A stretch of 64,000 nucleotides of DNA. Source: Paludibacteraceae bacterium. GTDB taxonomy: Bacteria; Bacteroidota; Bacteroidia; Bacteroidales; Paludibacteraceae. Where the stretch lies: NCBI GenBank assembly GCA_017439235.1, contig JAFSJN010000017.1, positions 1 through 64,000 on the forward strand. Direction: 5' to 3'. The position numbers and the translations under genes are program-made. Position 1 is the stretch's first letter. Each line of letters starts with the position of its first letter. Below are positions 1,651 to 9,362 of this stretch, in pieces. The notes under the pieces were generated by a model that was given only the letters and a program-made list of their open reading frames with translations, searched no databases and was not told the origin of the DNA.

Positions 1651-1683
1651 TTTAACTTTCTCGGGTTTGCTGCATCTTATAGG
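1651..1683 (+). promoter_or_regulatory. ECF-sigma type promoter upstream of the UGSC gene
   Basis: The block begins TTTAACTTT (ECF -35, AAC core) and ends TGCATCTTATAGG (-10 region). It matches position for position, 28 of 33 bases with no gap, the block at 7970-8002 in front of the ECF sigma operon. Seven-base inverted arms GTTTGCT (1665-1671) and AGCAAAC (1688-1694) flank the -10. The start codon at 1712 lies 28 bp downstream. Confidence 0.65.
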
Positions 1684-1711
1684 TGTGAGCAAACATTAAA
1701 TATATCCGTAT

Positions 1712-3829
1712 ATGAGAAGAAACGCTTTTATCTTTCAACTTTTGACTTTTGGCTTGCTGATGCTGAGTATTCCGAGTTTCGGACGCGTCATCTGTGACAC
1801 GACTTGTCATGCGCCCGAAGATGAGTTCCGCAATTTTGCTGTCGTATCGCCCGTCGGGCGCAGTATGGTGACGCATATCGAGCAAGCACCGCGTCTGACG
1901 ACCCTTGATAACAAAACCATCGCCATCGTCGGTGTCAGTTTTATGGCGCATGTAACACACCCCGAACTGAAACGTATCATTGAAGAGAACTACTCGAACG
2001 TGACCGTTCTCCTGACTGATGTGATGGGTTATGCGGGTCCGTACGCCGGTATGGGTATCGATCGTCAGCAAGCGAAAGAGTTCAAGCAGAAACTGATAGA
2101 TTATCACGTAGATGCAGTTATCTGCGGCAACGGCGGTTGCGGTATCTGCACACCCAAAGAGACAGGTTCCGCGATTGCAGCGGAGTACCTCGGCATCCCG
2201 GCCGTCGTGGTGGCAGGACCGGGTTTTACCGACCAAGCCAAATACACGGCGTATAACAACGGCGTAGCTGTTCTGCGTACCGCCGAGTACCCGGGTGCTT
2301 TTGCCACGCACACCGAGCAGCAATTGATTGACAATACCCGCAATGTCACCTGGCCGCAAATCCTTGCCGGACTCACTACGCCGATCACGCAAGCGGAGAT
2401 AGACGCCGCCAAGAATGCCGACCACGGCGACTTGCGCGACGATGTGTTCTGGGGTGACATCCGCAAGATCGATTCATTCTTTGTATCCATGCAATGGTCG
2501 GACGGTCTGCCGTTCGTGCCGCCCACATACGAAGAGGCGAACCGTTACCTCGAGTACTGCGATTACGCTTGGCATGAGACGGTGGTTGTCATGCCCGGCG
2601 CGTACCGCAACATCACCGCTTGGCACGTAGCCGTCAACGCCATCATGGCGGGCTGCAAACCCGAATACATGCCGCTGCTCATCGCCATGACCAAAGCGAT
2701 GGCGGGTCCTGAGTTCCGCCGCACACTCCTCTCCACGCATGCTTGGGCGCCGTACTGCATTATCAACGGTCCTATGGCACGCCAACTTGGTATAGATAAC
2801 GGACAGGGACAGATCAACGAACAGGCGAACATGTGTATCGGTCGCTTCCTCAACCTTGCTATTATGAATATGATGGGTTATTACGTCAAGTCCAACCGCA
2901 TGGGTACATTCGGATACCCGATGGCATGGTGTATTCTCGAAGACGATGCCGCCTGTCAGCGCGTAGGATGGGAGCCTTACCATGTGCAGCGCGGTCTCGG
3001 CATCAACGAATCGGCAGTTACCGTCACATCGGCACTCCTCTGGGGTAATAACATGGCTGTCTCAACACAAGACCCGCAGAAGATCATGCAACTTATTGCA
3101 TGGGACATCTCCCAACGCGGTCAGTGTGCCTTAGGCAGCAGCCAGCAGTTCACGCCGCGAACCATCCTGATTACCGAACCGACGGCGCGTATCCTCGCTA
3201 CCGAATACGAGACGTTGGACGAACTGGAAGACAGCCTTATCGTCTGGTCGCGCCGACCGGTTAAAGAACGTGCTTTTGCCAACCTCTACGCCAATACCGG
3301 CGGTCAGAAAGATTACACGATGAACCAATACACGCGCTGGATTGAGCAATCCGAAGGCGGTGCTACAACCACCACTCCGCCTTGGTACGACCGTGCGGAA
3401 GCGACTCAAAAGACCGTGCCCTGTATGCGCAAAGACTCCACTATCTTCATCATCACCGGCGACACGGCGCGTAACAAAGTGCAAGTGATGCCAGGCGGTA
3501 ATTTCTCCACCGCTGCTGTTGAAGTACCCGCCAAATGGGACTCGATTATGGCAGCCAAAGGCTATCCGACGCTCGAATCCATGTACCTCCCCGACTCCGG
3601 TGGCACAGCAACCGCGGCTCCTGTAGTCTCCGCTAATGGCAGTCCTGTTTCTTTCAACGGCAGAGAGATTGTCAACTCCGAGCACAAGAAAATAGCCATC
3701 TACGACGCCTCCGGCAAGATGGTCGGTCGTTCCAACACCCATTTCAGTATGCGTTCCCTTCCTTCCGGCGTCTATATGGTCTATGTCGCCGGCTACAAAG
3801 GCGTCGCCTGCAAAGTAGTCAAGAACTGA
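1712..3829 (+). CDS. Secreted UGSC-family redox protein with T9SS-like C-terminal domain
   Basis: A 705-aa exported protein. Residues 1-24 are a signal peptide. Residues ~60-230 look like a UGSC-family domain, named for a Sec-Gly-Ser-Cys motif; here the equivalent loop is GNGGCGICT with CGIC at 143-146, so both redox positions are Cys and no Sec codon is used. Residues ~245-600 resemble the large domain that accompanies UGSC proteins (SDGLPFVPPT, then AINAIMAGCKPEYMPL-like sequence and a GINES region). Residues ~640-705 end in a beta-sandwich tail (IAIYDASGKMVGRS, LPSGVYMVYV) of the T9SS type. The biochemical reaction of the family is not established. The N-terminal DNA for FQLLTFGLL contains a 'caacttttgactttt' low-complexity repeat. 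Regulation by the ECF factor at 8521 is inferred from the shared promoter. Confidence 0.75.
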   Translation: MRRNAFIFQLLTFGLLMLSIPSFGRVICDTTCHAPEDEFRNFAVVSPVGRSMVTHIEQAPRLTTLDNKTIAIVGVSFMAHVTHPELKRIIEENYSNVTVLLTDVMGYAGPYAGMGIDRQQAKEFKQKLIDYHVDAVICGNGGCGICTPKETGSAIAAEYLGIPAVVVAGPGFTDQAKYTAYNNGVAVLRTAEYPGAFATHTEQQLIDNTRNVTWPQILAGLTTPITQAEIDAAKNADHGDLRDDVFWGDIRKIDSFFVSMQWSDGLPFVPPTYEEANRYLEYCDYAWHETVVVMPGAYRNITAWHVAVNAIMAGCKPEYMPLLIAMTKAMAGPEFRRTLLSTHAWAPYCIINGPMARQLGIDNGQGQINEQANMCIGRFLNLAIMNMMGYYVKSNRMGTFGYPMAWCILEDDAACQRVGWEPYHVQRGLGINESAVTVTSALLWGNNMAVSTQDPQKIMQLIAWDISQRGQCALGSSQQFTPRTILITEPTARILATEYETLDELEDSLIVWSRRPVKERAFANLYANTGGQKDYTMNQYTRWIEQSEGGATTTTPPWYDRAEATQKTVPCMRKDSTIFIITGDTARNKVQVMPGGNFSTAAVEVPAKWDSIMAAKGYPTLESMYLPDSGGTATAAPVVSANGSPVSFNGREIVNSEHKKIAIYDASGKMVGRSNTHFSMRSLPSGVYMVYVAGYKGVACKVVKN

Positions 3830-3893
3830 ACTGCAAACTGAACCAAAATAAAACTAAAACTGAACCCAAAAACATAAATTCCAAAGAAAATGG

Positions 3894-3932
3894 CATACAA
3901 ATTTGCGTATGACATTTTTTTGTGTAACTTTG
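3894..3932 (+). promoter_or_regulatory. Hairpin plus sigma-ABfr promoter (TTTG-19-TAACTTTG)
   Basis: TTTG at 3902-3905 and TAACTTTG at 3925-3932 are separated by 19 bp. An imperfect hairpin (AATGGCATAC pairing with GTATGACATT, then a T run) overlaps the -33 box, so it may also terminate the UGSC transcript. Between 3830 and 3893 there is an AACTGAAC-type low-complexity repeat. Confidence 0.6.
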
Positions 3933-3984
3933 CAGCCGAAAGTTGCAAAGACAACTAAACAGGATAACAACCCCGATTTTAATT

Positions 3985-4122
3985 ATGGCGAATTCGCCAC
4001 AATTAGAAATAATGCAGGTCTTAGAATGTGGAAAGCAAGCGTATATTGAAAGGATAAAATCATCGTCCCCTCTCCGAGACATTATAGATGGAGCAATGTA
4101 TCTGCCAAACTTGACCGATTAA
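3985..4122 (+). CDS. Short hypothetical ORF (45 aa) in duplicated leader
   Basis: ATG 3985 to TAA 4120-4122, about 50 bp downstream of a good promoter. The product is a 45-residue hydrophilic peptide (MANSPQLEIMQVLECGKQ...) that I do not recognise. Its last ~20 codons fall inside the first copy of a ~90-bp repeat that recurs at 4480-4569, where the same DNA is out of frame. It may be a leader peptide, a broken gene or chance. Confidence 0.3.
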   Translation: MANSPQLEIMQVLECGKQAYIERIKSSSPLRDIIDGAMYLPNLTD

Positions 4123-4152
4123 AAACAACATTAAACAACATTACCGCCTATG
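4064..4152 (+). repeat. Direct repeat copy A (leader of DUF1016 gene)
   Basis: It begins CGTCCCCTCTCCGAGAC and runs to the ATG of the DUF1016 fragment. It matches copy B (4480-4569) at roughly 80% over ~88 bp, including GGAGCAATGTATC, CTTGACCGAT and ACCGCCTATG. Both copies place an ATG at the same distance (86 and 87 bp) from the first base. Confidence 0.75.
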
Positions 4153-4500
4153 ACAAAGGCCAATATACAACCGGCTCAACCCATCAGTGAGCAGTTCGTG
4201 GCTGAGATACGCCAGATTATCCGGCAAGCGCAGCAGAACGCAGTACGCAGTGTGGATTTCTGCCGTGTGCAGATGTATTGGAATCTGGGCAAACGAATCC
4301 TTGAAGAAGAACAGCAAGGCAAGGCGCGTGCCGAGTATGGATCGTATTTGATTAAGGACCTCGCACAACGCATTGAACCGGAATATGGCAGTGGTTTTGG
4401 AGAACGACAACTCAAATTCTGCCGGCAGTTTTATCGCGAATATCCAATTGTGAACACACTGCGTTCCCAATCCAGATACCGTCCCCTCTCCGAGACGTAA
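4150..4500 (+). pseudogene. DUF1016 (YhcG-like) N-terminal domain, truncated
   Basis: The 116-aa product matches the N-terminal domain of DUF1016/YhcG proteins (FVAEIRQIIRQAQQNAV, then VQMYWNLGKRILEEEQQGK, RAEYGSYLIKDLAQRIEPEYGSGFGERQL, FCRQFYREYPIVNTLRSQ). In intact members this leads into a PDDEXK nuclease-type domain of over 200 residues. Here homology stops abruptly at LRSQ and is replaced by SRYRPLSET, which is the start of repeat copy B read in this frame. The nuclease half is missing, so this is a remnant. Intact homologues are typical of mobile or defence-associated accessory DNA in Bacteroidota. Confidence 0.75.
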
Positions 4501-4569
4501 AAGAGGGAGCAATGTATCGGCCAATCTTGACCGATAAAAAAATATCAAATCAACCAACCACCGCCTATG
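4480..4569 (+). repeat. Direct repeat copy B, ending in an aborted start
   Basis: This is the second copy of the leader at 4064-4152. It also ends CCGCCTATG, but the frame that follows is ATG GCA TAA, so no protein follows. CCCTCT and AGAGGG inside this copy can pair. The arrangement suggests a former tandem pair of related genes, both now broken. Confidence 0.7.
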
Positions 4570-4636
4570 GCATAAAACAACAGACAAACAACATACATAA
4601 ATAAAGCGTAATAAGCCGAAAAGCTATAAAAATACA

Positions 4637-4684
4637 AAAAATGGCACTTTTATTTGCAAGTGTCATTTTTTTTGTGTAATTTTG
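4637..4684 (+). promoter_or_regulatory. Bidirectional terminator-like hairpin overlapping a promoter
   Basis: AATGGCACTT and AAGTGTCATT pair (9 of 10) with A and T runs on the two sides. The promoter TTTG (4653-4656), 20 bp, TAATTTTG (4677-4684) overlaps the right half. No convincing gene follows before the terminator at 4977-5010. Confidence 0.5.
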
Positions 4685-4976
4685 CTGCGCAAAATGAATC
4701 GTGCCCTTGTGGCTAAGAAAGTTTTGCTGTATTTAGTTCACGCCGAGGGTATATGTCTTTCGGGTGGGGGTAAATACAGGACATATTGAAAAAGGCGTCT
4801 TACGCGCTTTGTTTTGGCTTCTCAGAATCTGGTAAATTCACAAATAATCCAAAACATTGCAGCACAAGATGCTCATTGGTATGTAAATAATGTACGCGCA
4901 TAGTGCGCGCATTTATACATACGGCGTGGGCTTCAGTGTTGTTGTTTGGATTAGAAGGCAATACCAGAGCCTTGAG

Positions 4977-5010
4977 AAGCGGAACAGCAAGATTGCAGTC
5001 CCGCTTTTTT
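4977..5010 (+). terminator. Rho-independent terminator
   Basis: AAGCGGAACAGCAA pairs with TTGCAGTCCCGCTT (12 of 14) around a GA loop and runs into six T residues. It is correctly oriented for a + strand transcript starting near 4690. Confidence 0.65.
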
Positions 5011-5180
5011 GTGTATGTATATACCCTCGAGATTGTCTCGACATAGTACCGATTCGATTCTCTCTCGTTAGTGTCTCGCCAGTCTGATTTGGACAAATAT
5101 AGGAGTCAAAAAAAATAAAATATAAACGGAGAATGCCGAAAATCCGATAAAGAGTAGGCGAAACTAAAATCTAAATTAAC

Positions 5181-5948
5181 ATGTTAAACAAATTTACTCC
5201 AGATGTGTGTAAACGTTTAGAGTATTACGTTTACCGTCTCATTGATCCTCGTACAGGGCAGACGTTTTATGTAGGAAAAGGCAAAAATAATAGAGTCTTT
5301 GCTCACGCTCATGACGCCCTGAAAGACTACGAAGGTCAAAATTACTTCATCCAAGAAGAAGACGATGACCTTTCTGCAAAAGTCAAACAGATTCGCAGTA
5401 TTCATGATGCCGGTTTGGAGGTAATCATGGTTATTCATCGTTGGGGATTAGATGAAGAGACTGCTTACGAAGTAGAAGCTGCCCTTATTGAGGCTTATGC
5501 AGGTTTGACTAATCAACAATTAGGTCACGGAAGTAGCCGAGGAGTATCAAATGTGCAAACAATTCAGCACGTATTAAGTTTAGAGGAATTTGATGATTCC
5601 AATGCACTTGATAATGAGTATATGATTATCAAAATCAAACAAGAGTTCCTTGATTTACATGGCGGAGACATCTATGCTACAGCGCGTAGCGCTTGGGCTG
5701 TGAATCCTCAAAGAGCGCAAGCATGTAAATATATTCTTGTAAGTTTATATGGCGAAGTTGTCGCTATTTTCAAGAATGCGCGATGGACACCATGTCCAAC
5801 CGTGGCAGGTAGATATGAGTTTGATGCAGAACCTGCTGATCCTATAGTTGATGCCAGCATTATTAATCGTTATCTGCACAAACTTTTGCCGGAACGATAT
5901 ATGAAGAAAGGAGTCCAATCACCTTTCTTATATCAATCAAAGAAATAA
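5181..5948 (+). CDS. GIY-YIG nuclease-domain protein (COG3680/LEM-3-like)
   Basis: A 255-aa protein. Residues ~14-110 form a GIY-YIG domain: YYVYRLIDPRTGQTFYVGKGK contains the two beta strands of the motif, and EVEAALIEAYAGLTNQQLGHGS carries the metal-binding Glu in the characteristic place for the COG3680/LEM-3-like subgroup. The C-terminal half (residues ~125-255) is a separate domain with HGGDIYATARSAWAVNPQRAQ, seen in this subgroup and of unknown function. Enzymes of this fold cut DNA with one divalent metal. Base composition is AT-richer than the core genes nearby, and it sits next to other accessory genes, suggesting transfer. Biological role unknown. Confidence 0.8.
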   Translation: MLNKFTPDVCKRLEYYVYRLIDPRTGQTFYVGKGKNNRVFAHAHDALKDYEGQNYFIQEEDDDLSAKVKQIRSIHDAGLEVIMVIHRWGLDEETAYEVEAALIEAYAGLTNQQLGHGSSRGVSNVQTIQHVLSLEEFDDSNALDNEYMIIKIKQEFLDLHGGDIYATARSAWAVNPQRAQACKYILVSLYGEVVAIFKNARWTPCPTVAGRYEFDAEPADPIVDASIINRYLHKLLPERYMKKGVQSPFLYQSKK

Positions 5949-5973
5949 TTAACTTTTAAAATTGTATATCATT

Positions 5974-7735
5974 ATGAAAAAGAAAATTTTTACTTTATTA
6001 CTCGCTATTGTAGCAAGTGTAGGATTCGTATTCGCTGAAAGCGGCAGCTGCGGCGATAACCTTACATGGAACTTGACTGGTGGAGTTCTAACCATCAGCG
6101 GCACAGGAGCAATGAATGATTATAATAGTGGCACTAGTGTTCCATGGTACACTTATCGTTCTTCTATAACATCTGCGATTGTGGAGAACGGTGTCACCAG
6201 CATTGGAGATAATGCGTTCTATCAATGCGTCGATTTGACCTCTGTTACGATTCCCAATAGCGTCACAGTCATTGGATATCTTGCTTTCTATGAATGCAGC
6301 AGTTTGACCTCTGTGACGATTCCCAACAGCGTCACAGGGCATTGGAAGTGGTGCTTTCTGTAAGTGCAGCGGTTTGACCTCTGTGACGATTCCCAATAGT
6401 GTCACAAGTATTAGTGAGGGTGCTTTCTCTACTTGCACCGGTTTGACCTCTGTGACGATTGAAGCAGAAACACCGCCGACATTGGGTGGGTCGGGTCCTT
6501 TTAATAGTACCAATATTTGTCCGATATATGTACCTTGTGGCACAATAGATGCATATAAAACGGCATGGTCAAATTATGCTTCTCGGATAAAATATGCTCC
6601 ATTACCATACAAAATAACCACACATGCAGAAAATGGAAATGTTAATATCGCAAGTTTAGGAAATTATACTACTTGCGACACGGAACCTTATTATAAACTG
6701 ACAGCCGTTCCGAACTATGGTTATCATTTCACACAATGGTCAGATGGTTTGAAAGACAATCCGCGTATTTTCCAAATAACCAAAGACACTACATTTACCG
6801 CAGAATTTGCGTATGACCGCGTAGGTACTTGCGGAAAAAACTTTGCACTTACATGGTCGTATGACCACAGTACAAAGGTACTGACCATCGGCAATGCCGG
6901 CGAGTTTACGGAGAACATGCAGTTTGGCGCAGAAGCGCCGGGCGAGATGGAAGAACTGGTTATCGGCAATAACGTCACCGCCATCGGCGCAAATGCTTTT
7001 GCCAACATCAGCACGCTGAAGAAAGTAACCATCGGTGAGTCAGTGAAGACCATCGGCGAGCAAGCGTTCTTTAACTGCGTGAACCTCGAAACAATCTTCA
7101 ACTACCGCCCGACACCTACCAATGCATATAGCACGGCCTTTGACGGAGTGGATAAGTTTGAATGCAAACTGTACGTTCTGACCGGTTCGATTGATATGTA
7201 CAAAGCTGCTGCTGTTTGGCGTGATTTCTACTATACCTATGCCATCGGAGCCGAAGAAACTACCATGACTACGAATGATGTAACGGTAGAACCGCAGGAC
7301 AATGCTGCGACAGTTACATGGCCGACAAGCAACAATGCCGCCACTTATACCATCCAAATTACCAAAGATGGTGTAGTCTTCTGTACGTTGATCTTCAATG
7401 CTAATGGTCAGTTGACAGGTATTGCTTTTGCGCCTTCTCGCGAAGGACAGTCTCATGCTCCTGCGGCTCTTATGACCGCAAACGGCTTGCAGTTTACGGT
7501 AACGGGCTTGAGCAGCGGTACGCAATACGGTTATAACTTAACCGCTAAAGATGCCAATGATCAAACTGTTGCTACCTATTCCGGAGAGTTCACCACGACA
7601 AGCGAAGGTACTGCTACAGGGGTTGAAAATGTACCAAGTGACAATGTACCATGTACAAAGGTTATTCATAACGGACAGATCTACATCCTCCGCGGGGAGA
7701 AGGTGTATACCTTGCAGGGACAAGAGGTAAAATAA
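5974..7735 (+). pseudogene. BspA-type leucine-rich repeat surface protein, frameshifted
   Basis: The first segment (5974-6363) has a signal peptide (KKKIFTLLLAIVASVGFVFA) and BspA/LRR_5 repeats of the type TSVTIPNSVTxIGxxAFxxC. The second (6374-7735) continues the repeats, then a bacterial-repeat domain (HAENGNVNIAS...FTQWSDG), a second LRR pair, an FN3-like domain and a tail KVIHNGQIYILR...QGQEVK. The DNA repeat TTTGACCTCTGTGACGATT recurs at 6234, 6303, 6373 and 6442, giving periods of 69, 70 and 69 bp; the odd unit carries one extra base (AGGGC near 6336-6340). Restoring the frame gives one secreted protein of about 586 residues. Start at ATG 5974; upstream in-frame TTG ignored. The last 25 residues resemble those of the giant protein at 52099, suggesting a common export tail. 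Confidence 0.8.
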
Positions 7736-7781
7736 CCCCTTTCGCTCTCTCGATAACCCGATAACTCGATCTATCGGAACT

Positions 7782-7819
7782 CCTGCCTGCTCCACCACCG
7801 AGCAGGCAGGTTCTTTCTT
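7782..7819 (+). terminator. Rho-independent terminator after the BspA-like gene
   Basis: CCTGCCTGCTC (7782-7792) pairs perfectly with GAGCAGGCAGG (7800-7810) and is followed by TTCTTTCTT. Confidence 0.85.
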
Positions 7820-7867
7820 CGTCTGTTTCGTTCGAAACAATCGTTCGAATGCAATGAGATAAGAAAT

Positions 7868-7917
7868 AATCGTGCCCTTGCGGCTAAGAAATAATCGTGC
7901 CCCTCGCGGCTAAGAAT
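7868..7917 (+). repeat. Tandem pair of a dispersed ~25-bp repeat
   Basis: AATCGTGCCCTTGCGGCTAA occurs at 7868 and, with CCCTCG in place of CCTTG, at 7893; a third copy with one change is at 4697-4720 (AATCGTGCCCTTGTGGCTAA). All three are intergenic in the accessory part of the window. Confidence 0.75.
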
Positions 7918-7969
7918 TGTATTCGGACACGGCTTTGCCGTTTCTTCTTTGTATTTTTTTGCATCTCCT

Positions 7970-8002
7970 TTTAACTTTTTCCCTTTTGTTGCATCTTATA
8001 GG
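7970..8002 (+). promoter_or_regulatory. ECF-sigma autoregulatory promoter
   Basis: TTTAACTTTTTC (-35 with AAC core) and TGCATCTTATAGG (-10 region) have the same spacing as the block at 1651-1683. Perfect 9-bp inverted arms TTGCATCTT (7989-7997) and AAGATGCAA (8012-8020) straddle the -10, a possible operator or transcript-start hairpin. It drives the Spy-like, sigma and membrane-partner genes. Confidence 0.65.
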
Positions 8003-8092: not shown

Positions 8093-8524
8093 ATGCGGAA
8101 GATGATAATTATCGCCATGACGATGCTTATGGCAATCAGTTTGAACGCGCAACAAGCGGGAGGAAACGGGCAGACAGGAAACCGACAGCAAGCTATGCAG
8201 CGGATCGAACAGCAGGTGCAACATTACAGCGAGGCCTTTGCTCTGAATGAGGAACAAGCAGAGCAGTTCGGCACACTCTACAAGGCGTACAACAAACAAA
8301 TGCGCGCTATCCATGACCAATATCGGCATGAAAGGACGGCGGAAGGAGTGACCATGACCGATGAACAGGTCGAGAAGCGTATTCTGGACAATTTTGCGCA
8401 GAGCCGCGCTATTCTGGATGTGCGCGAAGAGTATTACAAAGAGTTCCGTAAAATCCTCACGCCTTCGCAAATCAACCAGATTTACGAGGACGAGAAAGCC
8501 CGCCGAGCGCAGATGAGACGATGA
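8093..8524 (+). CDS. Spy/CpxP-like periplasmic protein, first gene of the ECF operon
   Basis: A 143-aa exported protein: signal peptide MRKMIIIAMTMLMAISLNAQ, then an almost wholly helical, Gln/Glu-rich body. The sequence RILDNFAQSRAILDVREEYYKEFRKILTPSQINQIYEDE fits the Spy/CpxP/LTXXQ pattern (a 'LTPxQ' turn between long helices). Relatives are periplasmic chaperones or sensors for envelope stress and metals, and in several systems they control an ECF sigma factor. Its stop overlaps the sigma factor start (ATGA), supporting joint function. The specific signal is unknown. Confidence 0.7.
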   Translation: MRKMIIIAMTMLMAISLNAQQAGGNGQTGNRQQAMQRIEQQVQHYSEAFALNEEQAEQFGTLYKAYNKQMRAIHDQYRHERTAEGVTMTDEQVEKRILDNFAQSRAILDVREEYYKEFRKILTPSQINQIYEDEKARRAQMRR

Positions 8525-9033
8525 GACTTTTGGCACATAGTGTGACGACGGAACAACTGATAGAGCAGTATCAGCGACCGCTCTATTGGCATATCCGGCG
8601 CATGGTGGTCAGCCATGACGACACGCAAGATGTGCTGCAAGAGACCTTCATTCAGATTCATACGCACCTCAACGAACTGCGCCAAGCGGATTCCGAACGG
8701 GCATGGGTCTATCGGATAGCCACGAATGAAGCACTCCAATGGTTGCGGTCCAAACATGAGTTTCTTTCTTTTGAAGACGAAGACGCTTCACCGCTCATCA
8801 ATACACTCATGGCAGACAGTTATACCGACACAGGCGATGCACTGGTGCTGTTGATGCAGGAAGCCATCCTCACGCTGCCGACCATGCAGCGCACAGTCTT
8901 TAACCTCCGTTATTACGACGAACTGCCGTATGAAGAGATAGCGTCCGTCACCGGTTCATCCGTCGGAGCCGCCAAGACCAACTATCATTTCGCCAAAGAA
9001 AAAATCACTAACTATATACTCGCACACCAATGA
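8521..9033 (+). CDS. ECF-type RNA polymerase sigma factor
   Basis: A 170-aa sigma-70 family protein with only regions 2 and 4. Region 2 covers residues ~15-75 (YQRPLYWHIRRMVVSHDDTQDVLQETFIQI, the DDxxDxxQETF core, then AWVYRIATNEALQWL). Region 4 covers ~110-165 (LPTMQRTVFNLRYYDELPYEEIASVTGSSVGAAKTNYHFAKEKI), with the DNA-reading helix at SVGAAKTNYHFA. It is translationally coupled on both sides (ATGA overlaps). The promoter at 7970 has ECF architecture and is probably its own target. The same motif at 1651 points to the UGSC gene as a regulon member. Confidence 0.9.
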   Translation: MRLLAHSVTTEQLIEQYQRPLYWHIRRMVVSHDDTQDVLQETFIQIHTHLNELRQADSERAWVYRIATNEALQWLRSKHEFLSFEDEDASPLINTLMADSYTDTGDALVLLMQEAILTLPTMQRTVFNLRYYDELPYEEIASVTGSSVGAAKTNYHFAKEKITNYILAHQ

Positions 9034-9362
9034 AACAAGATATTTTTACACAAGTAGGCAAACGCACTCCGTTCCGCACGCCGGAATGGTTCTTTGAACA
9101 GCAGGAACAGACGCTTAAAAAAGCGATTAGCAGTCAGAAATCAGTAGTCAGACCGCTGCATCGCAAGTGGTGGTATGCAGTCGCAGCCTGTGCGCTTTTA
9201 CTCATTGCCATCTATCCGGTGATGCAACTGGTTCATTCATCGTCTGATTCGTTAGCTCCGGTCCCCGACACCGCACCTGTTTATAGCCAGACTTCGACCG
9301 CTTCTGATGATTGGTCCGACTTCGCCGAAGCGGATGTCTTTCTCGATAATATGAATTGGTAA
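9030..9362 (+). CDS. Small single-span membrane protein, probable partner of the ECF factor
   Basis: A 110-aa protein overlapping the sigma gene by ATGA. Residues 1-50 are cytosolic and basic (FRTPEWFFEQQEQTLKKAI), residues ~52-70 are one membrane helix (WWYAVAACALLLIAIYPVM), and the outer part ends in an acidic WSDFAEADVFLDNMNW tail. Position and topology match short anti-sigma-like proteins of Bacteroidales ECF operons, though no zinc-binding HxxxCxxC motif is visible, so the anti-sigma role is inferred from context. The DNA for SSQKSVVRP holds an AGTCAGAAATCAGTAGTCAG low-complexity repeat of the kind more often seen between genes. Confidence 0.65.
   Translation: MKQDIFTQVGKRTPFRTPEWFFEQQEQTLKKAISSQKSVVRPLHRKWWYAVAACALLLIAIYPVMQLVHSSSDSLAPVPDTAPVYSQTSTASDDWSDFAEADVFLDNMNW

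Follow-up and report, generated by a model that had tools for sequence, protein, structure and literature searches.

Two closely matching blocks in the genome of a rumen-type Paludibacteraceae bacterium, one preceding a gene for a predicted exported, cysteine-rich protein and the other an ECF sigma factor operon, raise the question of whether the sigma factor controls both units. The window, by which we mean the whole 64,000-nucleotide stretch of DNA analysed, carries these blocks on the forward strand at 1651..1683 and 7970..8002.

Matching blocks and their occurrence in the genome

The two blocks align without gaps with 28 of 33 bases identical, which reproduces the match described in a sequence-only reading of this DNA. 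That reading had also found nothing else in the window resembling them, and the closest other 33-mer to either block, on both strands of the window, indeed shares only 21 of 33 bases. An all-versus-all scan of same-strand 33-mers in the window at 28 or more identities gives ten collapsed pairs: the promoter pair, four from within the repeats of an LRR gene, and five further pairs. Identity at that level is therefore not unique by itself, and placement and conservation must decide.

The repeat corresponds to an element of two conserved boxes, TTAACTTT-N11-TGCATC, in the geometry AAC-N16-CATC. In the predicted ECF-type promoter upstream of the UGSC gene, the -35 TTAAC lies at 1652-1656 and the -10 CATC at 1673-1676, with 16 bases between them. 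The corresponding boxes of the predicted promoter upstream of the Spy-sigma-anti-sigma operon are at 7971-7975 and 7992-7995. The spacing of both blocks fits that of ECF promoters (SigW/RpoE consensus).

The assembly of this genome comprises 1,485,886 bases and is 76.93% complete. Within it, the full pattern TTAACTTT-N11-TGCATCTTATAGG at up to three mismatches matches only the two window sites, and the reversed-pattern control has zero matches. A search with relaxed spacing (TTAAC-N14..18-CATCTTA) again recovers only these two. Neither search detected further regulon members in this genome, although both would miss sites with weaker boxes or within the missing quarter of the genome.

Genes downstream of the two sites

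The first site precedes a gene (1712..3829, forward strand) for a predicted exported UGSC-domain protein of 705 amino acids, assigned by PF24696 (E=2.2e-15; 57.6 bits against a Pfam gathering score of 25) and by alignment with relatives. The protein has a signal-like N terminus, as judged by eye, and a CGIC motif. It scores 36.9 bits against a cut-off of 125 for the NF041046 equivalog, and we class it only as a PF24696-domain relative. A T9SS C-terminal sorting domain is borderline (TIGR04183, 23.1 bits versus a cut-off of 23; PF18962, 20.4 versus 27). PMC2398784 places UGSC proteins, including a UGSC/Unknown_1 fusion, among the major selenoprotein families of ocean metagenomes, and PMC13188914 counts them among selenoproteins whose biological functions are largely uncharacterised. 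The window protein resembles the family as PMC2398784 presents it in that CGIC is found where the family has UxxC (placed by eye), with a further conserved region behind. However, it differs in carrying Cys rather than Sec, in its signal-like N terminus and T9SS-like tail, and in falling below the NCBIfam cut-off. PF24696 was detected in 1 of 395 genomes of a phylum sample, and the full protein in 2 of 295 genomes of an order sample; apart from the genome studied here, the only hit is a member of another family (G412). Its UGSC relative (55%) follows a different ECF-like sequence, as seen by eye, and a 41%-identical sigma factor is encoded on another of its contigs.

The second site precedes three genes on the forward strand. 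The gene at 8093..8524 encodes a Spy/CpxP-like (LTXXQ) periplasmic protein of 143 amino acids (PF07813, 24.9 bits versus a cut-off of 24.3). The product of 8521..9033, 170 amino acids in length, is an ECF sigma factor, with Sigma-70 regions 2 and 4 exceeding curated cut-offs (PF04542, 50.7 bits versus 24; PF08281, 53.4 versus 25.7; TIGR02937, 82.9 versus 42.9). The overlapping gene at 9030..9362 encodes a single-span membrane protein of 110 amino acids that matches no family in Pfam or NCBIfam, and that, from its position and layout, is probably the anti-sigma factor. In an alignment of 12 members, the residues named in its predicted periplasmic tail WxxFAxADxF (codons 9312..9341) are invariant in all 12. 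The same trio is present in the 13 other genomes of the genus with intact sigma genes, and 12 of 14 order-level loci have the order sigma, anti-sigma-like, Spy-like, as judged by eye.

In CnrYXH-type systems, an ECF sigma factor is paired with a single-span anti-sigma factor and a periplasmic metal sensor of the Metal_resist/LTXXQ class, and the target is an efflux pump. Under our proposed reading, the window would share the periplasmic LTXXQ-class helper, the single-span anti-sigma factor and the ECF sigma factor, but its target would be UGSC rather than an efflux pump. By sequence, the Spy-like protein does not qualify as a CnrX-type metal sensor: PF13801 (Metal_resist) scores 23.4 against a cut-off of 29.2, and no relevant PDB match was found. 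A search by sequence for solved structures related to UGSC likewise returned nothing relevant.

A closer counterpart is the CirY/CirZ-Spy system of Phocaeicola vulgatus, in which, according to PMC13114119, an ECF sigma factor and anti-sigma factor are co-transcribed with a Spy-like gene, and deleting the anti-sigma gene induces most strongly that same operon together with two genes next to it. The likeness is one of gene content: the sigma, single-span anti-sigma and Spy/CpxP-like genes at 8093-9362 are adjacent on one strand, as expected of a Bacteroidales cassette of the CirYZ-Spy type. The published order is sigma-anti-sigma-Spy, whereas the window has Spy-sigma-anti-sigma. The CirY/CirZ-Spy regulon is small, local and self-including by expression, and here the promoter census points to a regulon of that kind. 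The sequence-only reading knew of no description of such a circuit. For the circuit including UGSC, the open-licence papers searched do not contradict this, and the excerpts of PMC12596196 name no such circuit, but PMC13114119 already describes, in P. vulgatus, an ECF/anti-sigma/Spy cassette whose small regulon includes itself. What is new here is the promoter code, the UGSC effector and the Spy-first order.

Conservation, linkage and apparent loss within the genus

We searched 178 genomes of the genus, which are draft MAGs. The site heads all 13 testable intact sigma operons; in a 14th genome with an intact sigma gene (G019), the operon stops at a contig edge and is left out of the 13. It also lies upstream of 7 of 11 intact UGSC genes, and an eighth, in G019, is located behind the anti-sigma gene. 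UGSC matches occur in 23 genomes, from which the 11 exclude four broken or contig-cut genes (G111, G174, G189, G074), six remnants (G196, G080, G147, G168, G077, G142) and two tail-only matches judged unrelated (G020, G067). Sigma matches number 16, of which a fragment (G077) and a sequence of 42% identity (G080) are not in the intact set.

The exact core occurs at 11 sites in the 14 sigma-positive genomes, each of them ahead of Spy, UGSC or what remains of a UGSC gene, and nowhere in 14 sigma-negative genomes (95-100% complete), which were selected for completeness and exclude genomes with scars or UGSC sites. At exactly one mismatch, the sigma-positive set has seven places, of which three are Spy promoters (G095, G128, G185), one is a UGSC promoter in decay with the final ten codons of UGSC behind it (G070, C90:10690), and three are unexplained. 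The sigma-negative set has nine such places in 8 of its 14 genomes, so matches at one mismatch are at background; a reversed control for the core pattern gives nine matches in the 28 genomes. The full pattern has 23 matches in the genus. Two of these were discounted beforehand as chance matches, one within a coding gene that we read as Mrp-like (G003) and one that overlaps an unrelated ORF at its start (G121). Full-pattern sites are found in 20 genomes, nine of which lack an intact sigma gene, namely seven with UGSC sites or scars and the two taken as chance. When UGSC loci were retrieved from a second collection by protein alone, 10 of 13 had the core (at most one mismatch) before UGSC. One of these loci, L134, matches no locus of the genus sample and has the exact core, and most of the other 12 come from MAGs that are also in the genus sample. 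The sequence-only reading had named as refuting a motif not enriched before genes in this genome or in relatives; that condition does not hold. Upstream of sigma orthologs in 12 order-level stretches outside the genus, the motif was not seen; the best of these (L017) has 11 of 14 box positions, equalled by 5 of 50 shuffles, and the scores of the others are equalled by at least 26 of 50.

The two units are also linked by position. In G105, G092 and G098, a single site is followed by UGSC-Spy-sigma-anti-sigma as one run, and the order is Spy-sigma-anti-sigma-UGSC in G019. In G073 both promoters remain as scars, whereas the two units themselves appear to have been lost. An intact UGSC gene accompanies an intact sigma gene in 6 of 178 genomes versus 0.87 expected (Fisher 2.8e-5, uncorrected for kinship). 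One of these is G187, where they are on separate contigs and UGSC has no site before it. Among the 14 genomes whose sigma gene is intact, eight have no intact UGSC gene, and 5 of the 11 that carry an intact UGSC gene are without an intact sigma ortholog. Of these five, G106 and G023 have no recognisable site before UGSC, whereas G177, G109 and G032 still have it.

A probable small autoregulated circuit and its alternatives

It is very likely that the ECF sigma factor encoded at 8521-9033 uses these two blocks as promoters, driving its own operon and UGSC. Our best reading, with equally high confidence, is an autoregulated ECF switch of which UGSC is the only other target detected, and the two sites, the sigma operon and UGSC very probably constitute one small dedicated stress-response circuit. 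The basis is the two sites, their conservation and placement before both units, the single runs in several relatives and the apparent joint loss in one. On these points the regulon put forward by the sequence-only reading is supported, without the conserved role for inverted arms that went with it.

Another sigma factor or a DNA-binding regulator could instead read the element and control both units, the neighbouring ECF sigma factor having other targets. We regard this as unlikely, if worth keeping in mind: sigma binding to the element is predicted from sequence, and the UGSC site persists in the three genomes just named. Yet the ECF spacing, the site at the head of every testable sigma operon and the missing exact core in the chosen sigma-negative genomes speak against it, and two of the three exceptions bear traces of lost genes. 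G109 (97% complete) retains the last 25 sigma residues and the anti-sigma gene directly after UGSC, and G032 (76%) has an empty Spy promoter, although the core of its UGSC site is intact and the site not visibly decayed. The third, G177 (97%), has an altered -10 core.

It is quite improbable that the two sites share no regulation and that the second merely arose as a copy of a promoter fragment when this region, rich in insertions and deletions, was rearranged. The region does turn over fast, with gene remnants, clean deletions and unrelated genes between the two units. However, when UGSC-type and Spy-type sites are compared, identity is 96% for the -35 box and 85% for the -10 region, versus 57% for the spacer and 39% and 27% for the flanks, and UGSC-type sites persist in relatives with UGSC proteins up to about 25% different from that of the window. 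Conservation is 1.74 bits per column in the boxes, and 0.64 and 0.45 in the flanks. A longer duplication as the source of both blocks is ruled out, because the boxes are conserved and the flanks much less so. Least credible of all is that the block is not a promoter read by a sigma factor but works as an RNA or operator by means of the inverted arms. The arms are placed as previously claimed (7 bp at 1665/1688, 9 bp at 7989/8012), and mononucleotide shuffles reach these lengths in only 5 of 200 and 2 of 200 cases. But when 17 sites of relatives were searched for perfect arms of at least 4 bp with a loop of no more than 20, the best measured 4-6 bp in 16 of them and one site had none, while both boxes stay fixed, so an operator or hairpin is not favoured. 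Partial echoes are visible by eye at the same place in close relatives (8 of 9 in G148; 5 bp in G070 and G105).

In the autoregulated circuit that we favour, the 110-amino-acid protein would keep the sigma factor at the membrane, and the Spy-like protein, together with the conserved anti-sigma tail, would report envelope stress from the periplasm, unless the Spy-like protein serves as an output chaperone rather than as a sensor. The released sigma factor would guide RNA polymerase to TTAAC-N16-CATC and activate its own operon, a positive autoregulation, as well as UGSC, whose exported product, with its redox-type CGIC motif, presumably counters thiol- or metal-type damage by repair or detoxification. 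Tentatively, and with somewhat less than even confidence, we suggest a one-target ECF sigma factor that serves itself and this single exported effector, with four genes behind one or two promoters being fused, split and lost as a unit. The envelope insult might then perhaps come from a rumen poison that is thiol-reactive or of metal type.

A Cys-form UGSC protein under a dedicated stress sigma factor with a Spy-like partner would provide a regulatory handle on UGSC function, since the signal that frees the sigma factor should be what UGSC handles. The element also offers a testable promoter code for one group of ECF sigma factors, of which the Bacteroidales have many, and the proposed regulon is of a size that allows its fusion, splitting and loss to be traced through a genus.

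The two putative promoter blocks and their genes

Two copies of a putative two-box ECF promoter lie at 1651-1683, before the UGSC gene, and at 7970-8002, before a Spy-sigma-anti-sigma operon. The sequence-only reading had described them as matching blocks without a counterpart elsewhere in the window, and both statements hold: 28 of 33 positions are identical, and no other 33-mer in the window exceeds 21. A search for the full pattern with three mismatches allowed locates only these two sites in the assembly that holds the window (23 contigs, 1,485,886 bases, 76.93% complete; reversed control, 0), and the relaxed form TTAAC-N14..18-CATCTTA likewise matches nowhere else. The regulon looks limited to two transcription units. 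The AAC-N16-CATC spacing fits the ECF promoter consensus. Inverted arms around the blocks, also described in that reading, are not fully conserved in relatives.

The UGSC gene (1712-3829) encodes a presumably exported CxxC protein that matches PF24696 well above the cut-off, with a T9SS tail that just passes and, by eye, a signal-like N terminus. Seven cysteines (C28, C32, C143, C146, C315, C407 and C415) are invariant in all 13 aligned proteins, a pattern that would suit thiol or metal chemistry. UGSC loci from named public records (n = 13) comprise two Bacteroidales MAGs and 11 titled as Paludibacteraceae MAGs; titles or isolate names place all of these 11 in a sheep, goat, cattle or deer digestive tract. 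The operon consists of a Spy-like (LTXXQ) gene at 8093-8524, an ECF sigma factor gene at 8521-9033, and a gene at 9030-9362 for a 110-amino-acid protein without a family match, which we take for the anti-sigma factor on the basis of position, gene overlap and a single hydrophobic segment noted by eye.

Conservation and placement of the element in the genus

A motif scan of relatives, which the earlier reading had proposed as a check, came out in its favor: with two mismatches allowed, the full pattern has 23 sites spread over 20 of the 178 genus genomes scanned (reversed control, 2). Eight sites precede UGSC (truncated in genome G111 and running off the contig in G189), eight precede Spy, and one, in G168, precedes a UGSC remnant that continues into Spy. 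Four are scars, promoters whose genes are gone (two in G073, one each in G032 and G151), and two, in G003 and G121, are taken as chance. Three further sites have at least three mismatches to the full pattern yet an exact core: before Spy in G187 and before UGSC in G174 and G098. Over 20 sites, information averages 1.74 bits per column in the boxes, 1.06 in the spacer, 0.64 in the 25 bases upstream and 0.45 in the 30 bases downstream, part of this conservation being explained by shared descent of the genomes.

Intact sigma orthologs are present in 14 genomes. In 13 of these the site heads the operon and is followed immediately by Spy, or else by a UGSC in the same direction or the G168 remnant; in the fourteenth, G019, the contig ends about 40 bases before Spy. 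The site also precedes 7 of 11 intact UGSC genes (G000, G105, G092, G032, G109, G177 and G098). The G019 UGSC sits behind the anti-sigma gene, inside the sigma operon, and intact UGSC genes in G106, G023 and G187 have no site in front. The 14 sigma-positive genomes contain 11 exact cores, all of them promoters of a UGSC or Spy unit; none is present in 14 sigma-negative genomes chosen at 95-100% completeness, a set that omits seven with UGSC-type sites or scars (G032, G073, G109, G111, G151, G177 and G189). One-mismatch core matches are present in both sets. In a separate collection of 13 UGSC loci, gathered by protein similarity alone, 10 have the core at up to one mismatch before UGSC. One of these, L134, has an exact core and matches none of the genome loci; the other 12 are mostly the same MAGs as above.

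In locus L142 (genome G412, from another family), a UGSC relative 55% identical has a different ECF-like sequence upstream, TTAAAC ... GGTCATATAGG, by eye; ECF control of UGSC may therefore extend beyond the genus.

Proposed working and relation to known cassettes

Judged from sequence, the sigma/anti-sigma/Spy trio is a Bacteroidales cassette. In 12 of 14 order-level loci, inspected by eye, the sigma gene is followed by an anti-sigma-like gene and then by a Spy-like one; in the genus of the window Spy is first. CirYZ-Spy of Phocaeicola vulgatus is a similar cassette, and deletion of its anti-sigma factor causes the cassette to drive itself and two neighbors (PMC13114119). By analogy, freed sigma factor would drive its own operon and UGSC. 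All 12 aligned relatives share the anti-sigma C-terminal tail WxxFAxADxF (9312-9341), and the middle of the protein is variable. The tail is possibly a sensor or protease contact, and may touch Spy or a protease in the periplasm. A loosely similar tail is seen by eye in several order-level anti-sigma factors.

The cassette type is already known; the promoter code, the UGSC effector and the different gene order are new. Among the open-licence PMC papers listed for UGSC, no description of such a regulon appeared, and none was listed on ECF sigma factors in Paludibacteraceae.

Linkage, splitting and loss of the two units

Six of 178 genomes combine an intact UGSC with an intact sigma gene, versus 0.87 expected (Fisher 2.8e-5, kinship ignored). 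G105, G092 and G098 have a single run of UGSC, Spy, sigma and anti-sigma in which UGSC and Spy are 30-42 bases apart; the order in G019 is Spy-sigma-anti-sigma-UGSC. What remains behind UGSC in G109 is the end of sigma (its last 25 residues) and then anti-sigma, Spy being gone. The window's units are split by an LRR gene, a GIY-YIG gene and what we read as a truncated YhcG-like ORF. G070 shares this split layout, with an LRR gene in between, and of its UGSC a decayed promoter and the final ten codons are left. G073 (80% complete) has apparently lost both units and kept both promoters, and its UGSC 5' flank joins directly onto the UGSC 3' flank.

The truncated ORF, YhcG/DUF1016-like by eye, lies at 4150-4500 between UGSC and the GIY-YIG gene. 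The corresponding position in G073 holds a longer ORF of similar appearance, which makes the interval between the units a candidate hot spot for insertions. The LRR gene (5962-7735), BspA-like in our reading, is in two frames (5962-6363 and 6374-7735), split around 6340-6374, and is either broken or an assembly error. An intergenic stretch recurs at about 3880-3935 and 4640-4685, and in G070, G073, G032 and G151; by eye, its short inverted repeat, T run and then TGTAACTTTGC resemble a terminator that runs into a promoter of the housekeeping type.

Intact sigma is missing from 5 of the 11 genomes with intact UGSC, and three of these five (G109, G032 and G177) still keep the site; the genomes are drafts, and gene absence may reflect assembly. 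The site might be read by something other than this sigma factor, in keeping with the intact core of the UGSC site in G032. We read the three cases as recent sigma losses, because G109 retains the sigma remnant, G032 has an empty Spy promoter and G177 has a changed -10 core. Intact UGSC is missing from 8 of 14 sigma-positive genomes; the cassette can therefore be kept for its own sake. In loci L099, L100, L114, L115 and L124, UGSC or sigma genes are short end remnants or are cleanly excised between promoter and 3' flank. Such remnants and clean removals in several relatives suggest that the function is costly or niche and is often lost.
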